Assembly: GCA_002224055.1 (NCBI GenBank)
Contig: AZLU01000083.1
Coordinates: 1-64,000 of the forward strand
Origin: Pezizomycotina sp. ARF18
Taxonomy: Eukaryota; Ascomycota
Direction of reading: 5' to 3'
DNA length: 64,000 nt
In this document: positions 21,800-62,650 of the stretch, piece by piece
How the letters are laid out: each line of letters opens with the position of its first letter
How positions within the stretch are numbered: position 1 is the first letter of the stretch
Made by a program: the position numbers and the translations under genes
Notes under the pieces: model-generated
Database searches by the model: none
What the model was told of the DNA's origin: nothing
What the model saw: the letters and a program-made list of their open reading frames with translations, nothing else

Positions 21800-22353
21800 G
21801 TTGATATTGATAGCCTGTGCAGTGGTTTGCTTGGAGAGATGCTGTTTGTTGGTCCATGAAGTATCTGCCCGTTGATACCTTGAAATACCTTTTATTGTTA
21901 TTATATAATAATTTATGGAATTACTACGGGCTCCCCCCCCCCCCCCTTCTTGCTACGGACGGCCCCCTAGAATTTTTTTTTTGGCTTATCTTCAACTTGT
22001 GAACCAAAATAAGAGCGCAATATATAAATTATATAGTAAAGCTCTTGCGCTAATTGATGGGCTAGCGTGCGCGTGTGAGCCTATTGCCGAAGCGCAGCGA
22101 TACGGGGGCGGAGTAATTCCCTATTTCTATGATATTCCATTCTATTACCGTTTCAAGAAAAAAAAAAAAAAAAACAGACTGAGCTGGCGCTTTTATTATT
22201 TGACCTTGATCTCCGAGGCTGCACGAGAAAAAAACTATTCCTACTGTGTGTTCAAACATTCTCCTCCTATTTTGCGATCTCGATCTCCCAGTACAACCGG
22301 CTTCCTATGCTTTGATAGCTATCGCAACCTGTATCTCATCAGTTTTCCCAGAA

Positions 22354-31689: not shown

Positions 31690-33294
31690 AAAATCGTTAT
31701 GTGAAGATTGATGATTGGGAAACTCTTGTTTCTTCTTACATCCGCAGCACTATTTTTACGCAGCAGGTTTGCAAGTCCCCGAGACGCAGTTTCCGGAGCA
31801 GCACGACTCGTTGTAATAACAGGTCTGAGCCGTGAAGTCGTTAGGGATGCAGCCGCACGTCCTCGACGAGGAATGCAGTAGCCCTTGCAGCACTCATGGT
31901 TAAGCTGGCAAGGGCCGCCGATGTCGAAGCAACACGTCCTCGAGCTGTTGAGGACGTACGGCAGGCACTTGGCTTGCGGGTTGCAGCACTCCGAGTCCGA
32001 TGTGCAGGCCGTCTGGAGCGCATTGAAGACGGAGTCGGGCAGGCAGCACTTCTGGTTCTGGCAGAACCGGCTGTCCGGGCAGGTCCCTTGGAGCAAGGCT
32101 TCATGCAGGTCCGGGTACCCGACACGTCGCAGAATCCGTCGCAGCACTCGTCGTTCGAGGAGCAGGTGGTGGTCGCGCCGCTGGCGGTGCAGTCCTTCAC
32201 GCAGACTCCCCCCGTACAAGAACTTCCGGAGCAGCACTGGTCGCTGGAGGAGCACGTGGTGAGGGAGCCGGCTGCGATGCAGCATTTGCCGCCGGAGCAG
32301 TTTCCATCGCAGCAGTCTCCGTTGCCGGAGCAGGTCGCGGATCCACCGCTCAGGGTGCAGGCCGCTTTACAAACTCCACCAGAACAGTTGCCAGAGCAGC
32401 ACTGGGAGTTGGAAGAGCAAGGGGTGGCGGCATCGTTGGCGATACAGCAAAGCCCGCTCACGCAGGTTCCATCGCAGCAATCTGAACCGGCCGAGCAAGC
32501 TGTGGAGGCTCCGCTCAGGGTGCATTGTGCTTTGCACACACCGCCGTCACAGTTACCCGAACAGCACTGAGAGCTCGAGGTACAAGCGGTCGTGGCGCCG
32601 TTTGCGATACAGCATTTTCCACCTGAGCAATTATTATCGCAGCAGTCACCCGCCTTGGAACAAGAGGTAGAAGCGCCGCTCTGGATGCACTGGTTGGTCG
32701 GAGGAGGGTTTGGAATGACAGCCGAGCACTTGTTACCGGAGCAGTTGTTCGAGCAGCATTCGGAGTTCGAAGTGCACTTGTAGTCGAACCGTTCGCGATA
32801 CAAGAGGGAGGCGGCGAGGACGTGGCGGCGGTACACCTATTGTACTTGCAGTTGTTCGAGCAGCACTGTGAGTTGGACGTACATTTCAGGATCGATCCGT
32901 TGGCGATACAGGCGGAGCCTTTGGCTTAGCGGCGCACTTATTTCCGTAACCGCAGTAGCCGGAGCAGCACTGCGAGTCGGACGTGCACCTCTGCGAGGCG
33001 CCGTTGGCGATGCAGGGAGGAGGCGGGACGATGCAGTATCCGCGGACGCAGGAGGTTCCTGAGCAGCACTGGGAGTCAGAAGAGCATCTCTCCCCGCGGC
33101 CGAGGCGGCAGGTCTTCGTTTTGAGTCGCAGGTGTAAGCCGGGTTGCAACAGGGCTTCTTGGACGAGCAGCTCTGCCAGCTGGCGCACAGCTGCGGGCGT
33201 GTAAGTGAGCGTGGCCGTCACGGTGAGCCGAGGCGTTTACCGTCACTGCAAATGACGATACCGCTAGAGCCACGAGGATCTGGTAAAAAGACCG
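31690..33294 (-). pseudogene. Secreted protein with about 12-14 CC-containing cysteine repeats
   Basis: Minus ATG at 33294 gives MRSFYQILVALAVSSFAVTV, a signal peptide. A low-complexity stretch follows, then about a dozen modules of the form Cx(5)CCx(3-4)Cx(3-5)C: CSSDSQCCSGTSCVRGYC, CTSDSQCCSGYCGYGNKC, CTSNSECCSNNCSGNKC, CSKAGDCCDNNCSGGKC, CTSSSQCCSGNCDGGVC, CSSNSQCCSGNCSGGVC and others, with linkers CIANGA, CTLSGA or CIAAGS. The spacing resembles Dickkopf-N-like or knottin-like disulfide modules. The longest continuous frame is 331 residues (31841-32836); the whole is split over more than one frame as read. Probably a cell-wall or extracellular protein. Related to the gene at 17.3-18.4 kb. 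Confidence 0.6.
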
Positions 33295-37913: not shown

Positions 37914-38832
37914 TCATGAAACTTCAGCACGCCTCGTGCGTTCCTCCCCGCGGTCTTCATCCTTCGGATCATACTCGTCGTAAAAGTACAGCTGATGCAT
38001 TGACTTGCCGTAATACTCAGACTCCTCAGTTATCTCATGAGGCGGTTCCATGGGATCCGGTCGTCCGTCAAGCTCGACTACAACGTATCGTAAAAGTTCG
38101 ATTAGTCGTACCTTCTCTAGACCATTAAGTCGGAAAAAAATAAAAAATAAAAAAATAAAAAAAACTACACCTTCGTTTCCCAATAAACACCATTTACACG
38201 TACAACCCGCTTCGACTGCCAGTGCTCCACGACCGGCCGCCTATAAAAGTGAAACATATGCTGCAGCGGAAAGCCTTCCGGCCAACCTGGGCACTTATCA
38301 TTCCTGCATACGTCCATGTGGCACCTATAGCAGAACCTCCACAAGCGGGCTGATTAGGCGTATGGATCGTCTCGTGTCTGTACATCTGCCCCCCATATCC
38401 TTCCTCCTCACTGATATCGTAACCTTTCAAGCCGCATCTCGCACACGTGTAATTGACCAATCCTCTGTGGGTATGTTTCTGTCTTTACTCAAACCCCAGA
38501 GGACGAGGTGGGATACGCAGTTCTCGCACACGCGGAAATCATTTACGCGTAGCGTTTCCATGGGGAACTTGTTCTTCGGTCGCACGCGCGAGCACGTGCC
38601 GCAGATTACCACGTCATGGCCGTGGAAGAGTTTCCCGGGGAGAAAAGGAGGCGGAGAAGTCGTTATGGTCTTTGTGGCCGTGGGAGAAGCGGTCGAAGAG
38701 TCTTCAGGGTGTATTTGGGGTCGAGTCGGGCCTTGAAAGAACGGCAGACGATACGAAGCGAGTGATGATCTGCATTGGTGACGTGGTTAACTATGAGATC
38801 GAAAATCTCGCCGGGACGTCTTTGAGGGACAT
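37914..38832 (-). pseudogene. FCP-17: F-box/Cys-rich family copy with acidic C-terminal exon
   Basis: Minus ATG at 38832 gives MSLKDVPA. After a shift comes EIFDLIVNHVTNADHHSLRI and VCRSFKARL. LPGKLFHGHDVVICGTCSRV and FPMETLRVNDFRVCENCVS are one clean frame (38640-38520). YTCARCGLKG with MYRHETIH follows (third pair plus His). Then, one frame over, FCYRCHMDVCRNDKCPGWPE and GFPLQHMFHF (about 38310-38240) form a perfect terminal signature. A final frame ending at 37914 is acidic (EPPHEITEESEYYGKSM, YDEYDPKDEDRGEE), equivalent to the acidic exon of FCP-26. No PIP motif follows. At least three frame changes. Confidence 0.7.
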
Positions 38833-39243
38833 CGCTTTATAATTGCAGGACACAAGCAGGTTGTGAGCAGAAAGAAAACGGATCAAGGGGCATGAGCGAC
38901 TTAAATTATCTTAGATCACGATTGACAATCCCAGCCGTCGTGCGGCTGAGGATGTTGTCAAGGTGGCTGATACCCTAGCGGCGGTGTTATTTCGGCTTCG
39001 CGTGGCGTTCAAATTCACTAGATTATCTACAGGAAAATCATATACTTCTTCGATGACTAAGATCGATAAAACACGATAGTCTCAAATCTAGTGTCTCAAA
39101 CTTCAATTGACGACATTAAATACAAGCTGGTTAAAACAGGAAAAGCAAAAGTCTTCATGCTTGGAGACCCTATCTCTTTTAAAAGGCAAGGCGAACTCAC
39201 TTGACCGAGTTCTAAGCCTGGGCATTCAGCGCAAGCTGCGTGA

Positions 39244-53409: not shown

Positions 53410-53800
53410 GATGATGGTATGGAGGTGTCGATGCTCCAGGAGAAATATACTTCGATGTCTCTCGGTTTATCGATACTTGGAATGTGTAGCTAGCAGTTGG
53501 TTGTTTTTTTTTTTTTTACCATGGCAAACTTTTGCAAACTTCGGCGTCCTGTTTTTCCAAATTTTATTACCATATAATATTAATCCAATAAATGATTTTA
53601 CACACCCCGGGCCATCATCGACATCTCGTAAAATTTTTCACCAGGCAATATCTACTCAAAATATATATAATCACTACATCAAACAGCGCATCTCGGCCAT
53701 CAGGTATACCCTAGCTCTCCTAGATTGGTAGCTACTCCATTCCAAAGTTCTTCATCCTTGGGAGCCGACTTTACGTATACGGATAAGGCACCTTCAATTC
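53410..53800. other. No recognisable gene
   Basis: Contains a T12 run near 53504. Nothing else. Confidence 0.35.
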
Positions 53801-53808
53801 AACAAACC

Positions 53809-54975
53809 ATGTTACTCGGCGAAATCCTGTTGAGCTTTTCCTTTCTATCACTGGTCACCTCATCGAAGCTGATAAACAAGCACTTCGAATCACTTGCCGC
53901 GCCTTCCGGCGCTATATCCCATTACCCCAGGAGCTAGTAAAGATCTATGGGGTCGAAAATCCTTTTTTCAGTAAGGACGTTATGGAGCGCCGCAGCTTCC
54001 TACCGCGCTTGCTAAAACCCGGCAACGTCTTTGCCGGAAGAAACCTCAAGGTGTGCTGCGGCTGCTTAAAGCTCAGCATCCGTCCCGCTTCCCATGGACG
54101 GCCTGAAAATCGACGACTTCGACATCTGCGGTGAGTGCCTCCTCGACCTCTTTCGCCCCAGTTAGCGATTCCGGCCTCGAGGAGTTGAACCTCGCCCGTT
54201 GCCACTCCTGCCACTGGTTCGAGGAGGTCTTTCGAGGCTCGAGTTCCCCACCCGTGGCACGGGTTGGGAACCCTATGGGGAATCCGTGGTGCTGTGTAGT
54301 AACTGCATCTTCGATAAGCTTTGGGCAGTCGTAGCCAAGGGCATAAATTTGGGCACCCCACTATCGGGGAGTATTACATGTGTGTTAGCTGCGGGGCGGG
54401 GGGGAGCGACGGGAGATGCACGGGGAGTGCGTCGACATCGACGACTTCTTCGAGCCTGAGAGGCTGGACCCCTTGATCCCGTACAGGAGGATCTGCCACG
54501 CTTGCCATTGTAGCAACTGCTGGGATGATGAATGTCCTGGTTGGCCCGAGTGGGCACTGAAGGAGCATAGATATCACTTTTATGACTTTGATCCGGATGG
54601 GAGGTGTTATGAGTGTAATAGAATCCGTAAGTTTTGATTTCATCTATCCCCCCCTCCCAAACCTATCTTTAGCTGGGCGGGATTCATTGATGCAATTTTT
54701 ATTGTTTATTTTTTTGTCAATAACTGACGACATTATCCATATCCCCTGGACGCTCTAGACGACGAAGAAACTAAGTGCTTCCTTGTTGAAGGTTGCGACG
54801 AGGATGATTACATCGCGCTTGAATATTTCCCACCGGGTACGCACAATATTTAATCCTCACTTTTTGATTGCATGTTGTCACTGCCGGGATTTACGTACTA
54901 ATATATGTTTGTGGTACAGCCGCTGGCCCGCACAAGCGTCAGACCACCCTTGATGCGTATTTCAAGAAAGGGTGA
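53809..54975 (+). pseudogene. FCP-26: F-box/Cys-rich/PIP-box copy, three exons, exon 1 frame-broken
   Basis: ATG at 53809. In one frame: NPVELFLSITGHLIEADKQ, ALRITCRAFRRYIP, SFLPRLLKPGNVFAGRN, KVCCGCLKL. Shifts follow, then RFPMDGLKIDDFDICGECL, EYYMCVSCGAGG, and from 54416 one frame: RICHACHCSNCWDDECPGWP, EWALKEHRYHFYDFDPDGRC, YECNRI. Exon 1 ends at 54626 (GTAAGT, phase 1). Exon 2 is 54759-54836: HDEETKCFLVEGCDEDDYIA, LEYFPPG (acidic). Intron 54837-54919. Exon 3 is 54920-54975, ending AAGPHKRQTTLDAYFKKG, a canonical PCNA-interacting peptide (QxxLxxYF) at the extreme C-terminus. The tail exons join in frame. Expected to be nuclear; direct PCNA binding is inferred from the motif. Confidence 0.75.
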
Positions 54976-54979
54976 ATGG

Positions 54980-55320
54980 TAAATCTAGAGCCATCCTACC
55001 AGTGGAACCTTTTAAAGTCGGGAAAGTCAGATACTTTCACCCTTAATTGTTTGTTTATTTGTCTATTGCCTTGTTATTTTTCTTTTCGCCTGACTTTCTT
55101 ATATTATGATCAATTGCTATAATAAAATATTGTTTCGTTAGCTTTGAGCGCCCACTTTCAAACTGATGTATCTAGCCAGCATCATTTAACTGCCGTACAG
55201 TGGTTCACCTGACCAACCACCGAAGAGCTCGTTACTAGATAGTATCGTTCTTTTCGTTTTGTCTGAGCATTTTTTTTATATCATCTTCTGTTGCAATTGA
55301 CTCAGATACTAGTATTTCCA
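54980..55320. other. Convergent spacer between FCP-26 and FCP-27
   Basis: About 340 bp between the 3' ends of two facing PIP-bearing copies. Nothing recognised. Confidence 0.35.
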
Positions 55321-55321
55321 A

Positions 55322-56426
55322 TCAGCGACCCTTATTGAAGAAGTTATCCAAGCTCAATTGGCGTTGTGGTGGTCCGGCAGCCAAAGAGAAAGTTGCCAGC
55401 TTAATATCTTTGCGGTACTTGATCGACAGAAGAAGCCATCGTACCTCGAGGAAATAACTGATCGTAATGTATTTCATCGTCCTCTTCTGCTTCGGAGCAG
55501 TCGAATCTCTCGTCGTCTTTCGAAAGCAGAAAGGCCCGCGGTAAGAACGATGATTAGTTGACTTCCAAGAGCAAGAGATGGTAACATGGGCCGGAAAGAA
55601 ATTTATTGTAAGGGCGTCTTACGTATCTTATGGCAGGCGTAGCAGCGGCCATCATCATCACACATGTAGGAGCGAAAGATGAAAGTTCCCAGTACTCGCT
55701 GATCACCGATTTTGGCCACGCTTTACAGGTTGGTCCTGGCAGCGCCGAAAATGGCACAGTTCGCATATCCTGGTGTAAGGCTCCATATCCGGCTCTGGAG
55801 CCTCTATCCACTTGCATACCGCGTACGTGCTTTCTTTACCACCTGGGTCGCAGCATTCGGCACACGTCCAGGTCTCGCGAATGTAGGTGTAGCTGCACTT
55901 GTGACCCGGATACACGGCCTCGCAGAGGAGCGGATGACGCAGGCGCGGCACCGCCTGGCATGATTTGGATTAGCGCCGCTGTATAGATTGACGGTGGCGG
56001 TACTGCCAATTTGTCGCCGCAGCGAAAGCAGATCGTCGTATCGACGCCCAGGCAGACGAAAAATAGCCGGCACAACGGAGGTGTCCACGATTCAGGTTGC
56101 GCATATTTCCTGGTCGTTGATGGTGAAACCTTCCGCCGGAAAGTGCCGTTTGTCGCCTACCCTAGAACAACCTCCGCAGACCTTAGCGCTGCTACCGAAG
56201 AACTCGTTACCTTCGGTGAACAGGCGCAGAGGGAAACTTCGGCGTTCGATACTTCGGAGGAGAAGATGAGAGGTCTCTCCCGATTCTCCGATCTTTGGAG
56301 CCGTCGAGCTAAACGTATGAGACGCGTAAATGAGCGGCAGGCGATGCGTAGGGATTGTCGGTCCTCTTCATTGAGGTGCGACGCGATGAGGAGGAAGAGC
56401 TCGACGGCGATGTTGGCGAGGGGCAT
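55322..56426 (-). pseudogene. FCP-27: F-box/Cys-rich/PIP-box copy, three exons, frame-broken
   Basis: Minus ATG at 56426 gives MPLANIAVELFLLIASHL, EEDRQSLRIACRSFTRLI. One frame over: FTEGNEFFGSSAKVCGGC, RHFPAEGFTINDQEICAT. Later PYTRICELCHFRRCQDQ, then a shift to WPKSVISEYWEL and RCYACHKIR, ending at 55623 (GTAAGA donor, phase 1). Exon 2 is 55516-55445: HDERFDCSEAEEDDEIHYDQ, LFPRG. The next intron runs 55444-55381, but its acceptor is GG where relatives have AG. The last exon is 55380-55322: AAGPPQRQLSLDNFFNKGR, a PIP box. Both tail exons keep the same phase as FCP-26. Confidence 0.7.
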
Positions 56427-56429
56427 GCC

Positions 56430-57225
56430 GGTGGAGAAGGTAATTAGATTGCGGGTGATAGATGAACCTTTGGTAGCAGAGAAAGGGGGGGGTGGAGGTT
56501 TATGGCGAGTGGGAACGATCGAGATATTTGCCTGAGGTCGGATGCGTGTGTATGAAAATTCTTTAACTTATACCGCTAATAAATTTTTTTAAATAAGTTC
56601 AAGAAAAGGGGAAAAAAAAGGGCTGATTGATAGTGTAGTCTGGAGACCTTCTCAAGTCTCCAGACTATGACAGTACGAGGCGGAAGAAAAGTAAATAAAT
56701 TAAAATAAGATAAAATAAAATAAATAAGATTAGAAATAAAAATAAAATCAATGAACTTGAAGGAAGTACGGTGCTGGAAATCAAGTAACGATAGCCAGGC
56801 GGCCCCGTCTTTAAGATGCCTATTCAAATATACCCACTTAAACCTATTTCGACTGCTATATAGAATGTGGCAACAGTATCCGAGCTTTGTATTAAAACGC
56901 TGATTTCTTAGAAACGACTCTCCGAGTCCTTAAAAGCTAGTTCTTTGAAATTAGAGAAGCCCTCGAGTGCGAAGCCCGAAACCTCAGGAAGCTGAAGCTT
57001 ACTATCCACTATATACTCAAGTTATCGAAGCTGAACTTGTGACCCTTCGATATGCTCTAGCGTAGAGCATTGAAGAGGCAGTCGTAGCATAACCTCATTT
57101 CGTCCCATTCCATTTCCCAAATTTTGCTGCGGCTTAAGGGGATTGAATTATCGTACGAACCCTTCTCACACCGAAGCAGACTGTCTCGGCGGCAAGGTGA
57201 TAATTCCGCCACCTGTAAGGGCTCC
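56430..57225. other. Unassigned; possible extension of FCP-28
   Basis: AT-rich between 56570 and 56830. Near 57080-57110 the minus strand reads MRLCYDCLFNALR, possibly a third Cys pair of FCP-28, but no terminal signature or PIP exon was found. Confidence 0.35.
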
Positions 57226-57229
57226 TACG

Positions 57230-57640
57230 CTGGTTCAAGTGCTTGAAGACACATCGACAAGGCAGACGTGGCAGATCTCAAGATCGTCGATCTTCAACCT
57301 CGACCGGAAACCTAGAATCAACTGCGACACCCTGGCAGCCCCTGCACGTCTTCAACCCGGCCTCAATCCCGCGAAGACGTTACCCTTCCTGAACAAACGC
57401 GCAACAAAGCTTCTGCGTTCCCAGGAAGCGCTCGTCGAAGATCAACGGCCCGGTGTTATACCAATCCTTCGCTGGCCGCGGCGAGAGCAGGATGAGGCGT
57501 TTGAAGCGCGGCAGGTGATGCGAAGAGATTGCTTGTCGGCGGCATCGAGGTTGGAGGTGATGTCGAGGAATATTTCGACGGGGATATGGTTGAACGGCGA
57601 AGTTTGTGGCTCGTCTGCATTGCTCCCTGGGAACTCGGGG
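57230..57640 (-). pseudogene. FCP-28: F-box plus first Cys pairs only, frame-broken
   Basis: The minus strand reads FNHIPVEIFLDITSNL, AADKQSLRITCRA, then one frame over FKRLILLSPRPAKDW and DERFLGTQKLCC. LKTCRGCQGVAVDSRFPVE and IDDLEICHVCLVDV, in two frames, give the first and second pairs. No in-frame ATG stands at the usual place just before the F-box. The rest of the domain is not convincingly present, so this copy appears truncated. Confidence 0.55.
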
Positions 57641-57649
57641 CGCTAGAGC

Positions 57650-58035
57650 GTCTTTGACTCGTGGCTAATATTCTGAGGGAAAGGATGGATGATGATAGCT
57701 GACGATACTTACCGGTGACAACGCTTGTTCGTGAATATCTAGATTCACCTTATTCTTCAATAGAGCCTTGATAATTCGTGAACTTTGTGTTCAATTGCCT
57801 GCCTTGTATTTTCTTTATTTTCTTTATTGTTTGTAGTTGATTAAGTATACTTAGAGAATTATTTGTGTGTTCCTTCTGTTTTGATTGTTGGCAAGGAACT
57901 ATTGTGAAGATAAATTGGAAGGCGAAAAAGTTTGCACAGGAAAAAAAAATTTGAAATGCCAATTAATCAAATAAATTACTAATACCCACGTGCTCAACAG
58001 TGCCTCTTTCCTAGCCCGTTTTCGAGCAGGGAGCA
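57650..58035. other. No recognisable gene
   Basis: AT-rich spacer between FCP-28 and FCP-29, both on minus. Confidence 0.35.
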
Positions 58036-58038
58036 CCA

Positions 58039-59209
58039 TCATGCTGTAGCTTTTTCTTCATATCGTCCGTTCTTGAAGAAGGCATCAAGGGTCAGTTGGC
58101 GCTTCGGTGGACCGGTAGCTATACAGGTACTCGTTAGTGGATATCTTCATCAACTTAAATATCGCAGCCGAGGAAAACAATGGTTATGGGGAACGAAGCG
58201 GAAAGGACGTCCTCATACCTGGAGGAAAGAACTCAAGACCAATATAGTCGTCCTATGGCATCCTTCAACTTCACTACACTCCAATCTTCGTCGTCCTTTG
58301 TCGAGCAGAAATTGCCGCAGTAGTTAGTATATGCATTTTCCATAGCGTATATGGCGAGGAGGTGAAGGGGAAAACATGAAGGGGTACGGGTAACTACTCA
58401 CGGATTCTATTGCATTCATAGCGGCGACCTCTAGATCGAAAGCGTAGAAATGTTCCCTGTTCTCTTCGACAAACTTGTCCGGCCAACCAGGACATCCGCA
58501 GTCGCACAGTGATCAAGGTGACACTCCAACAGACCCTTCATATGATGGAGCCATATCCGCGGCGCCGAATATCTTCACCATATTCACACTGCGTATGTGC
58601 TCTCCGTATCTGTTACCATGCCACAGGTCATACACGCCCAATGATCTCCGATGCCAGGAAAGTGAATTTATGTCCCTTCGCGTCATCTTCGCAATACTTC
58701 CATGACGCAATCGCAGCAAAAGTACATGAGACTCAAGTACTTTTTCCCACTGCGTGCCCGTGGTGACAAGACGAAAGTAAAAGTCGCCTCCGTTACAGAG
58801 ACAGCAGCGGAATGGACGTAAATAATCGGGCGCTCTGGCTGTGACATCTCGGACGTTAGCAATTGAGGATGAAGGGCCGCATATGTCCTGGTCATCGATT
58901 TTGACGCCGAAGAACGAGAAACGGGGTAGCCGATTTTCAGGCAGCAGCTGCAGGCCTTGGAATTCTTCCCGGCGAAAACGTTGCCCTGTTTGAGTAAGCG
59001 TGGAGGGAAGCCCCGCAATCGAGGACGTCCTTGGAGAAGAGTAAAGGTCCGGTGGCTCCGTTGTTGGGCCGCGTGCCGGTGGATATACTCTGAAAGCTCG
59101 GCAGGTTATTCGAAGTGCTGCTTGTCAGCCTCGTTCAGATCATCAGTGATCAGCAAAAGGAGTGCCACGGGAAGGAGGCGAAGGTGGGCGGTATTTGAGT
59201 GTTCTCCAT
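58039..59209 (-). pseudogene. FCP-29: F-box/Cys-rich/PIP-box copy, three exons, frame-broken
   Basis: Minus ATG at 59209. The F-box is split over frames: LRLLPVALLLLITDDLNEAD, then ALRITCRAFRVY. PPRLLKQGNVFAGKNSKACS and CCLKIG follow, then IDDQDICG, YFCCDCVMEV, CMTCGMVTDTESTYAV, CDCGCPGWPDKFVEENREHF, and YECNRIR with a GTGAGT donor (phase 1). Exon 2 holds LECSEVEGC and, one frame over, DDYIGLEFFPPG (ends 58219), closely matching FCP-26. A CTAAC branch site and TATAG acceptor lead to exon 3 (58118-58039): ATGPPKRQLTLDAFFKNG, then RYEEKATA. This is the strongest PIP box of the set. Several frame changes in exons 1 and 2. Confidence 0.75.
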
Positions 59210-59429
59210 GGTCTGCGGTCGTTAAGGGGGTGTTGGATTAGCCAGCCACCGAGGAGAAAAGAGAGATGAAGATTGTGGAGCCTATTGAGAGGTTTTGTTA
59301 GTGGTGTATATTCGGCGTCTTTGGCTTCTGTCGCTTCTTCGTCTTCGTCGTGTTTGCGTTCGGCACTAATAGGATGAGCTTTTAATGAGGATGCTGGATA
59401 AAAGAAATGAAATTGTTAAATTTAAAACA

Positions 59430-59485
59430 ATAAATCAATCAATAAATAAATAAATAAATAAAATAATAAATAAATAAATAAAAAA

Positions 59486-59536
<51 letters not shown>

Positions 59537-59565
59537 ATTAAATAAAATAAATAAATAAATAAATG
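59430..59565. repeat. AAAT microsatellite
   Basis: A nearly pure (AAAT)n array of about 130 bp with a few interruptions. Confidence 0.9.
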
Positions 59566-59814
59566 ACACCCCTTATTTTCTATTCTATTACTTATATTTG
59601 CGGGAATCTTCGCACACATCAGTACTTCAAGCAGATAACAAAACTTGTTTCTATTGAAAATCAACGCAATACCGTTCGAACATACACTGAGGATTTTCTT
59701 CCAATCCTGCCATCTCTTATCCAGTACTGCATTACATTAGCTCATACTAATCGACATCACGACCTACTCCGCCTCCAGCAGAAATCAGAGTTCTCTATAG
59801 CGTATTGACGCCAG

Positions 59815-60739
59815 AATGAGCTCCCCAAGTTCCCCGTCGAACTTTCCTCGACATCGCTTCCTACCTCCGCTTCGCGGACAAAGAAGGCTACCCTCACCTG
59901 CACTCGTTCAGGAACATCCTCCTTCCGCGCCTCTTTCGGGAGGGGAACCTGTTCGCTGACAGGGACGTCAAGGCCTGCAGCGTCTGCTTGAAGGTTGGGG
60001 ATCGCGAGAAGCACTTTCCGATGGAGGGTTTCCAGATCGACGGTTACGACGTCTGTGTGGATTGCATTTGCTGCATGCTCTGCGACTGTCTCCCGAGGAG
60101 TGTTGACAAGATGGACTTGGACAAATGCTGGGAATGCTATACCCGCGCGAAGAAGGTGTTCAATTCCCATTAACGGAGTCATGGACCTTGACGAGGCTTA
60201 CAGGCTTGTCTGTGAGCACTGCCTCCTCGACATCGTGCGTCAAACGCTACTAGGGACACCAGCAGAGCTATAAGGGGTTGAATTCTATACGTGCCGCATC
60301 TGCTGGTCCGGCATCGGTTTGCGACAATGTGGATACGAGTGGCGGGGGTGAAGGGGACTCTGGTGAAATGCACACACCTTGTCAGGGAGAGCTGATGCCT
60401 AAGGTTCTGGAAGAGATGAAACCCTACACGAGATCTGCCAGGGCTGCATATGCGTATATGCGGCGAATACGAATGTTCCGGATGGCCGGAGGCTTTTGGG
60501 ACCACTCGTCGATGAGGAGTATCGCACCGAGGAGAGTGGCGGTGATGATTTTTCTGAGGACGGTTCAGCCGCGGACGACGAGGAAATCTATTATCCAGAA
60601 GAGCGCGACAATGAAGAAGAATCCAAATGACGAGGATGGAATCGGTCGATTACGGGACACCACCGATGAGGAAAAGCCCTCGAGCCAAGATAATTCTGGG
60701 GATGAAATTTATCAGAAGAGGAGGCGTCCCGTCGAGTAG
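59815..60739 (+). pseudogene. FCP-30: shortened F-box, full Cys region and long acidic tail, frame-broken
   Basis: Starting from an ATG near 59815, LPKFPVELS is followed one frame over by LDIASYLRFADKEGYPHLHS and FRNILLPRLFREGNLFADRD, so the CRxF half of the F-box is missing. VKACSVCLKVGDREKHFPME, QIDGYDVCVDCICC are in the same frame to 60170. Later segments: LVCEHCLLDI, EFYTCRICWSG, MKPYTRICQGC, and CGEYECSGWPEAF in changing frames. An acidic run follows without an obvious intron (EESGGDDFSEDGSAADDEEI, YYPEERDNEEESK). No PIP motif. A further frame to 60964 reads LLNQLKEIIYRYEQRIIKRR, a helical end of unknown relation. Confidence 0.6.
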
Positions 60740-60744
60740 TAGCA

Positions 60745-61430
60745 TATGCTAAGAACAACCCGAATCTTGACGGGTACGATACGTTGTCCACTCTGCTTCC
60801 ATACGGTCTGCTTTGTTTCAAGGCTACTAATTACTATGAATTACTCATCTGCCGCCAATAAACAGGTCGGACATCTTGCTCTCAATCTCCTTGAATCATA
60901 TTTGCTAAACCAACTGAAGGAAATTATATATCGGTACGAACAGCGGATCATTAAAAGAAGATGAATATAACTTATGGGATATATGTGGTCACGATAGGTT
61001 CCTTCCTTAGAATCGAAATCCCAATTGCCATTTCAAAGATGTTTGCTCTGGAGACCGTCATGGGGCTTATAATTTTATCCAATCAGCATTTCATTTGGCC
61101 TATTCATTGACAAGTCAGATATGGTATAACTTTGAAGTTATATTGTTGTTAATTAAGAAAAAAGGTCCAAAAGAACACATTGAGAATTACAAAATTATTC
61201 ACTCTTTAATTACGCTATTAAAGATTAAATTAAGAAATTTTTGAAGTTGGTATATGTACGACGACTCTTGGAGACCATAAAAGTTGACTGGATGGATATT
61301 AGAGCCAGGACTTCCATTCTGCTCTGTTTTCTCCTCTCTGCTCTTTTGCTTCTCATTTGTTTCTCTTCCCACTTTTGTTTTTTTTTTAATATTGTGAGTT
61401 ATCCTGGATTGAAGCAGGCTCTCGCGAGAA
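60745..61430. other. No recognisable gene
   Basis: AT-rich spacer. A T11 run lies at about 61378. Confidence 0.35.
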
Positions 61431-61434
61431 CCCA

Positions 61435-62650
61435 TCAGTACTTCCTGAAAAAGGCGCCCACAGTGAGTTGGCGTTTCGGTGTCCGCGGCTACATGTAGAT
61501 ATACAACACATTAGTATTAGCAACCGAAAGCCATGCTTTACAAGCGCTGAAAGTAAAAAGCATCATTGGAAGAGAAAGAACGCATACCAGATGGGAAACG
61601 TTCGTTTTCGGGAATGGCCTCATCGCCTATAAAATCATCGCAGGTCCAATATTTATCATCTACAAGGAAGTTATCAAGAAGTATTAGCTATCCGTTGGCC
61701 TGGCATATTATTTTACAGGCAATATCATACTGATACAGTATGAAGGTAATGGTTGGAACGGAATGGAAACGTTCACATACGTATCTCGCCGCACAAAAGG
61801 CAGCGGCCCTGAGCGTCGCACTTGTAGAAATATCCGTTGTGGATATCGATGACAGAGGAAACGTTCGTTTCGGAATGGCCTCATCGCCTATAAAATCATC
61901 GCAGGTCCAATTTATCATCTACAAGGAAGTTTATCAAGAAGTATTAGCTATCCGTTGGCCTGGCATATTATTTTACAGGCAATATCATACTGATACAGTA
62001 TGAAGGTAATGGTTGGAACGGAATGGAAAACTTCACATACGTATCTCGCCGCACAAAAGGCAGCGGCCCTGAGCGTCGCACTTGTAGAAATATCCGTTGT
62101 GGATATCGATGACAGACCTGGGCCAACCAGTGCACTCGTGGTCGCGGCAGAAGGGGAAATGGCAACTCCTACAGATTCTGATATACGGCAGCATAACTCG
62201 GCCGGCGTCGTTTCCTTTTGCAAGGCGAGGATTCGCAGCCGAATTACTGACGCGTCCGCACTCACTACAAGACTAATGATCGCTGATTGCGGGTGACTGA
62301 ACTTGTGACCTGCCGTAACGCCTTTCTGACCGCCCAGAGCACACAATCAGGGCAGATCTTGCCATAACCTTCGACGGTGTCCTCGGGCAGCCAGATGTCA
62401 TGCCCAGATTAACCTGAGGGTTGTCTTTTTGTACCTAACCGGGACACCCGACATCGCAAATGTCGAGGACCACCCAACTGCGGATTGCGGCGAAGCATTC
62501 GGGAGCCTTGAGATGTTCGCCAAGCAGGTCGCACAGACTTCTAGGTCGTTGACAGTGAGGTCTTCGAGCGGGAAGTGGCGTTTATCGAAGATTCCCGTGC
62601 AGTTGCCGCACGCTTTGAGGATGCATCAATCTTTCACGTTCGATAATTTC
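61435..62650 (-). pseudogene. FCP-31: Cys domain plus PIP exon, lacks F-box, internal tandem duplication
   Basis: Begins abruptly near 62650 without F-box or hinge. ILKACGNCTGIFDKRHFPLE, DLTVNDLEVCATCLANI give the first two pairs. Near 62190-62041, YIRICRSCHFPFCRDHECTG, WPRSVIDIHNGYFYKCDAQG, RCLLCGEIR ends at a GTATGT donor (phase 1). A segment of about 260 bp covering the end of exon 1, intron 1 and exon 2 is then present twice (61595-61857 and 61858-62117). In the copy nearest the 3' end, exon 2 (61659-61588) is intact: HDKYWTCDDFIGDEAIPENE, RFPSG. The last exon (61488-61435) encodes PRTPKRQLTVGAFFRKY, a PIP box, one base out of phase with exon 2. Confidence 0.65.
61595..62117. repeat. Direct tandem duplication of about 260 bp
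   Basis: 61595-61857 and 61858-62117 are almost identical. The ATGAAGGTAATGG landmark lies at 61740 and 62000, exactly 260 bp apart. Differences are a few single-base indels. The unit spans exon 1 end, intron and exon 2 of FCP-31. Confidence 0.9.

Follow-up and report, generated by a model that had tools for sequence, protein, structure and literature searches.

Clustered F-box proteins of an Orbiliomycete contig, some predicted to end in a PCNA-interacting peptide

The first 64 kb of fungal contig C83 (hereafter the window) carry part of a multicopy family of F-box/Cys-rich proteins, and sequence analysis supports the view that a canonical PCNA-interacting peptide (PIP) box, with positive flanks and kept by selection, forms the end of some members. 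The contig is 160.6 kb long and belongs to a genome of 46.36 Mb in 408 contigs; the GC content of the window was 46.5%. The features that can be read from the letters are the F-box homology, the Cys motif, the exon phases, the PIP boxes with their basic flanks, the constraint on the motif and one copy with two PIP boxes. We consider it somewhat probable (roughly 0.55) that the tailed copies are small substrate receptors of Skp1-cullin-F-box (SCF) ubiquitin ligases, which would dock on PCNA by the PIP box of their last exon.

PIP tails were detected in copies 26, 27, 29 and 31 of the window and in a fifth copy beyond it (Table 1). The four tails in the window, on both strands and with KR or QR ahead of the motif, had been named in a preliminary description of this DNA. 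All four were found where it had placed them and lie 3-11 residues before the stop, and the fit to the PIP-box consensus that it proposed was borne out at the Gln, the Ψ position and the two aromatic residues in each. Together with the fifth copy, six tails displayed QxxΨxx followed by two aromatic residues, with basic flanks. The net charge of these flanks averaged +3.2, against +0.7 for 12 other loose matches (one-sided rank test, 0.003). Positive flanks raise the affinity of PIP boxes, which is tuned over four orders of magnitude (PMC6881253, excerpt).

The departure from chance depended on the pattern used. RQx[ST]hxx[FY]F, a pattern whose added positions were chosen post hoc with the tails already seen, had seven matches in 133 kb of C83, while 100 second-order Markov sequences averaged 0.09 matches and none had more than one. 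The seven matches were the six family tails and a poly-T artefact at 22163. In the window, [KR]RQxxhxx followed by two aromatic residues occurred four times against a mean of 0.1 in 20 first-order Markov shuffles; these were the same artefact and three tails, since the QR tail falls outside this pattern. The loose pattern Qxxhxx[FY][FY] showed no clear excess (18 observed, 11.8 expected, reached by 7 of the 100 Markov sequences). The significance thus rests on the Arg before the Gln, the Ser or Thr at position 3 and the final Phe.

For copies 26 and 29, splice signals and reading phase confirmed the separate last exon claimed in the preliminary description; they did not for copies 27 and 31, which are discussed below. 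In copy 26, exons E2, E3 and E4 formed one frame from 54389 across two GT-AG introns (54627-54758, GTAAGT..CTAG; 54837-54919, GTACGC..ACAG with the branch site TACTAAT), ending in DDYIALEYFPPAAGPHKRQTTLDAYFKKG. An acidic exon E3 with a phase-1 GTAYG donor was present in all four window copies; the donors of copies 29 and 31 were GTATGA at 58218 (phase 1) and GTATGC at 61587. In copies 26 and 29 a branch site was followed by an acceptor AG exactly 20 nt before the Gln, a position that requires phase 1. At 61594-62116, about 260 bp are directly duplicated at 97% identity, exon E3 of copy 31 included; this is either a recent event or an assembly effect.

The fifth tailed copy consisted of an F-box copy at C83:84.7-85.8 kb (region L024) and two PIP exons located after it. 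Its PIP boxes, GRQSTLHSFF and RQRTLDKFF, were in frame with each other over a GT-AG intron, with the donor at 85613 and the next exon at 85704. The two exons together read ADHATSGKGRQSTLHSFFDMPKSRSLPYAFRQRTLDKFFSK stop, where the first split codon holds a stand-in base for the unplaced upstream exon and the PIP letters are independent of it. Both exons began in phase 1, like those of copies 26 and 29, which makes the double tail look like a PIP exon duplication. This copy strengthens the predicted combination of F-box and PIP box.

Constraint was estimated from the proportions of nonsynonymous (pN) and synonymous (pS) differences. Over six motif codons in the 15 pairs of the six tails, pS was 0.74 and pN 0.09, values that were partly selected because the tails had been found by their PIP pattern. 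The core pieces gave pN of 0.24-0.50 and pS of 0.55-0.90, with pN below pS in all nine comparisons used (a tenth row was dropped). We infer that five copies holding the motif at near-saturated silent divergence would be hard to obtain without selection.

A family profile iterated from one open copy aligned with 84 pieces of open reading frames (ORFs) on C83:1-133000, which were grouped to 40 loci by script and 46 by hand. The family consensus starts with the F-box LPvELFl.Ias.L...DkQcLRlTCRaFr.lIp, followed by C..C pairs and C..CH...C....C.GWP. When three family pieces were searched as proteins against the whole genome, all matches were on C83 (11/11, 3/3 and 15/15). Seventeen copy ends were read by eye in three frames; five had a PIP tail and twelve did not, in agreement with the strict pattern scan. 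Three of the twelve ended in short acidic stretches (38.3, 60 and 86.4 kb), which are perhaps alternative C-termini at the place of the PIP exon. The tailed count is a lower bound, as C83 was not readable over its final 27.6 kb or in two stretches of N (83326-84477 and 123299-128171). The first of these stretches starts within a family copy whose F-box lies at C83:83.2 kb, and masks its tail.

The evidence for F-box membership is good at the level of the family. PF00646 exceeded its cut-off of 20.5 at two family loci, C83:52654 (27.5 bits) and C83:118290 (29.3 bits); no tailed copy was above the cut-off among the matches listed (150 of the 207 candidates were scored). Nine ORFs were compared with Pfam by hmmscan, all of them ORF pieces and three from tailed copies 26 and 27. 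Five of the nine matched F-box or F-box-like domains at 13-18 bits, all below cut-off, and four were unmatched. The predicted model of the 47-kb copy contained helices at residues 4-13, 16-25 and 27-30 (pLDDT of the block 75-87, pTM 0.48), and a fold comparison of this model covered mainly residues 109-182, outside the N-terminal helices. Genome-wide, at least 72 six-frame F-box matches were detected among the same 150 scored candidates, and F-box is among the expanded Pfam families of the nematode-trapping Orbiliomycetes M. haptotylum and A. oligospora (PMC3828140, excerpt). In two sampled F-box clusters on contigs C7 and C78 (9 kb each), however, the family profile matched over the F-box part only and no loose PIP match was found. 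These two regions, L048 (C78:112001-121000) and L049 (C7:157001-166000), contain other F-box genes, several of them with long open frames (up to 304 aa).

In the proposed mechanism, the N-terminal F-box would bind Skp1, and the Cys-rich middle (C..C, C..C, C..CH...C....C.GWP), which is probably zinc-binding, would bind the substrate. An acidic linker would lead from this middle to the tail, and the C-terminal PIP box from the last exon would dock the receptor on PCNA. Docking would bring the ligase to chromatin under replication or repair, where its substrates would be ubiquitylated in the nucleus in S phase. The preliminary description spoke of an SCF receptor aimed at PCNA. The F-box family with PIP tails agrees with this at the sequence level, but "aimed at PCNA" goes too far, because Cdt2, the nearest precedent, docks on PCNA as a platform in order to degrade other proteins. 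PCNA is more likely a platform than a target here as well. In a PIP degron, positions 5 and 6 of the PIP box are TD. The six tails had DA, DN, DA, GA, HS and DK at these positions; an identity as PIP degrons of CRL4-Cdt2 (cullin-RING ligase 4) substrates was therefore rejected, and the tails look like docking motifs rather than self-destruction signals.

To our knowledge, PCNA-coupled proteolysis is known mainly from CRL4-Cdt2, and we know of no multicopy clustering of Cdt2. Cdt2 (DTL) is a WD40 receptor of CUL4-DDB1 with 730 residues and not an F-box protein. It resembles the tailed copies as a cullin-ligase receptor whose C-terminal PIP box tethers the ligase to PCNA. This PIP box binds PCNA at 57 nM and helps CRL4-Cdt2 to act on clamp-sharing substrates, receptor and substrates meeting on the clamp, but the peptide as printed has no canonical Gln (PMC6312923, excerpt). 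An identity with the Cdt2 family was rejected, as WD40 was absent at E values up to 1 from the nine ORF pieces. The human helicase FBH1, which the preliminary description had offered as a precedent, does hold an F-box and a PIP box in one protein (PMC13200063, excerpt). It differs in being a UvrD helicase with its PIP box in a disordered N-terminus and an APIM motif in the helicase domain, and it is degraded by CRL4-Cdt2 via a PIP degron (same excerpt). No helicase domain was matched in the nine ORF pieces, and identity with FBH1 was likewise rejected. In budding yeast, the F-box protein of SCF-Dia2 interacts with the replisome and moves along with the fork, an example of a fungal SCF acting at forks, but its tether is an N-terminal TPR domain and no PIP box, as far as an excerpt of PMC4584310 and a reference title in it indicate.

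Three explanations concern the nature of the tails. Chance matches would explain the mild excess of the loose pattern, but seven stricter matches lying, apart from the artefact, at homologous exons leave this explanation a negligible probability. The tail could also be a separate small gene or an unused exon beside the F-box genes, given that its joining to the F-box exons is predicted from sequence and that 84-120 nt separate the E3 donor from the tail Gln beyond it in the four tailed copies of the window. We regard this as very improbable: Cys core, E2, acidic E3 and PIP box follow one another alike in copies of both strands, the donors are in phase 1 in four of four, branch site and AG stand at equal distance in two, and the tail of copy 26 is in frame with E2 and E3. 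A genuine, kept tail with a partner other than PCNA appears improbable. Short motifs can be degenerate and binding to PCNA is a prediction, but the Gln, Ψ and two aromatic residues all match, and the C-terminal place and the basic flanks are those of a PIP box.

Several observations weigh against clamp-docked receptors. The tail was found in only five of the 46 hand-made copy groups, and the two loci above the Pfam cut-off have no tails. In this assembly no tailed copy had an unbroken frame from F-box to PIP box. Copy 27 had no AG at the homologous acceptor place, and the AG of copy 31, 18 nt before the Gln, needs phase 0 where the incoming phase is 1, so that its tail is out of frame. The selected sampling of the motif codons belongs here too. 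These defects, with the frame breaks of the tailed copies, a stop codon interrupting one candidate linker frame in the fifth (85-kb) copy and the strong divergence of the copies from each other, would fit a decaying cluster in which the PIP tail was once functional and the tailed copies are now pseudogenes. This is nonetheless rather unlikely, as pN was below pS in all the core comparisons and frame breaks also affect other genes of the genome. The only PCNA gene detected changes frame at two places where the sequence of three fungal PCNAs, including two Orbilia proteins, runs on without a gap, and a P450 gene on C83 shifts frame within 13 nt (L024:7221-7235). The ARF18 draft (Orbiliaceae, Brachyphoris sp.), the likely source assembly, was made from PacBio reads with the low-coverage settings of Canu, polishing not being mentioned (PMC5571426), and we computed a raw coverage of about 23.5-fold; single-base gaps are therefore expected. 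Assembly indels probably break many genes of this genome, and the broken frames of the tailed copies are at least partly assembly errors. The preliminary description had stressed that the motif was kept while frames broke. The breaks are present in the letters, but as the PCNA gene is broken likewise, the picture of decay is unneeded and survival of the motif amid broken frames is an unsafe argument.

In a tree of 23 PCNA proteins, the genome joined two Orbilia species and a metagenome protein with a support of 95/91, and the nearest PCNA in the tree was 86% identical. Relatives of the family, a check named in the preliminary description, were sought in about 5.8 billion proteins, and none was found at 0.001 (164 candidates) or at 0.01 (1154 candidates). 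It follows that no annotated full-length protein is available that joins F-box and PIP box, a further point against the proposed receptors. The database searched includes Orbilia PCNAs and the class is therefore represented there; a fast-evolving family could escape a protein search, above all one that needs shared words. By title or abstract, none of the literature matches listed described a family of fungal F-box proteins with a PIP box at the C-terminus; the search, which most subscription journals lay outside, does not prove novelty.

It is possible, and we put it forward tentatively, that lineage-restricted and locally amplified SCF receptors in an Orbiliomycete dock on the sliding clamp via an exchangeable last exon. 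They would be a second ubiquitin ligase system coupled to PCNA, of independent origin, with SCF instead of CRL4 and with fast-changing Cys-rich heads choosing replication-linked targets. Tailed and untailed paralogues stand side by side, and one copy has two PIP exons. If the proposal is true, such compact SCF receptors, with their PIP box at the C-terminus, would show that clamp-docking logic arose on another cullin scaffold, and the paralogues would be a natural paired set for the effect of a PIP tail on an F-box protein.

Table 1. Positions of the tailed copies and of other features; positions are those of C83 unless a region is named.
Feature	Position	Strand	Remarks
Copy 26, open frame, F-box (PVELFLSITGHLIEADKQALRITCRAFRRYI) and first Cys pair	53787..54131	+	family profile 7.3e-28 (profile built from a set including copy 26); PF12937 0.059, below cut-off
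Copy 26, exon E2, Cys motif C..CH...C....C.GWP	54389..54626	+	open to donor GTAAGT
Copy 26, exon E3, acidic (HDEETKCFLVEGCDEDDYIALEYFPP)	54759..54836	+	phase-1 introns on either side
Copy 26, last exon E4, (A)AGPHKR-QTTLDAYF-KKG stop	54920..54975	+	branch site TACTAAT, acceptor ACAG
Copy 26, motif QTTLDAYF	54940-54963	+	KR before, stop 3 residues after
Copy 27, F-box and first Cys pairs, two overlapping frames	56095..56567	-	family profile
Copy 27, exon E3, acidic	55445..55532 (start approximate)	-	phase-1 donor GTACGA at end
Copy 27, tail, AAGPPQR-QLSLDNFF-NKGR stop	55322..55380	-	homologous acceptor place without AG
Copy 27, motif QLSLDNFF	55337-55360	-	QR before, stop 4 residues after
Copy 29, F-box remnant and Cys core, two frames	58516..59124	-	family profile
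Copy 29, last exon E4, (A)TGPPKR-QLTLDAFF-KNGRYEEKATA stop	58039..58118	-	branch site CTAAC, acceptor TATAG
Copy 29, motif QLTLDAFF	58075-58098	-	KR before, stop 11 residues after
Copy 31, Cys core and E2 Cys motif	62036..62625	-	family profile
Copy 31, tail, PRTPKR-QLTVGAFF-RKY stop	61435..61488	-	branch-like CTAAT, acceptor TGTAG
Copy 31, motif QLTVGAFF	61447-61470	-	KR before, stop 3 residues after
Fifth copy, two consecutive PIP exons	L024:2547-2762 (C83:85547-85762)		phase-1 starts
Longest open family copy, F-box and Cys core, 234 aa	47186..47887	-	no PIP tail seen downstream
Copy 30, amid tailed copies, Cys core and E2, acidic end	59820..60512	+	no PIP tail seen
Untailed copy with acidic end	38168-38836	-	
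Untailed copy with acidic end	L024:3387-3998	-	
Untailed copy with acidic end	59820-60739		
Frame-broken PCNA gene	L029 (C56:207518-207847)	-	

A long Cys-rich ORF at 31844-32836 on the minus strand of the window had a weak match to the Cys-knot family PF17557 (29.9 bits, cut-off 27), which is likely an effect of Cys spacing.

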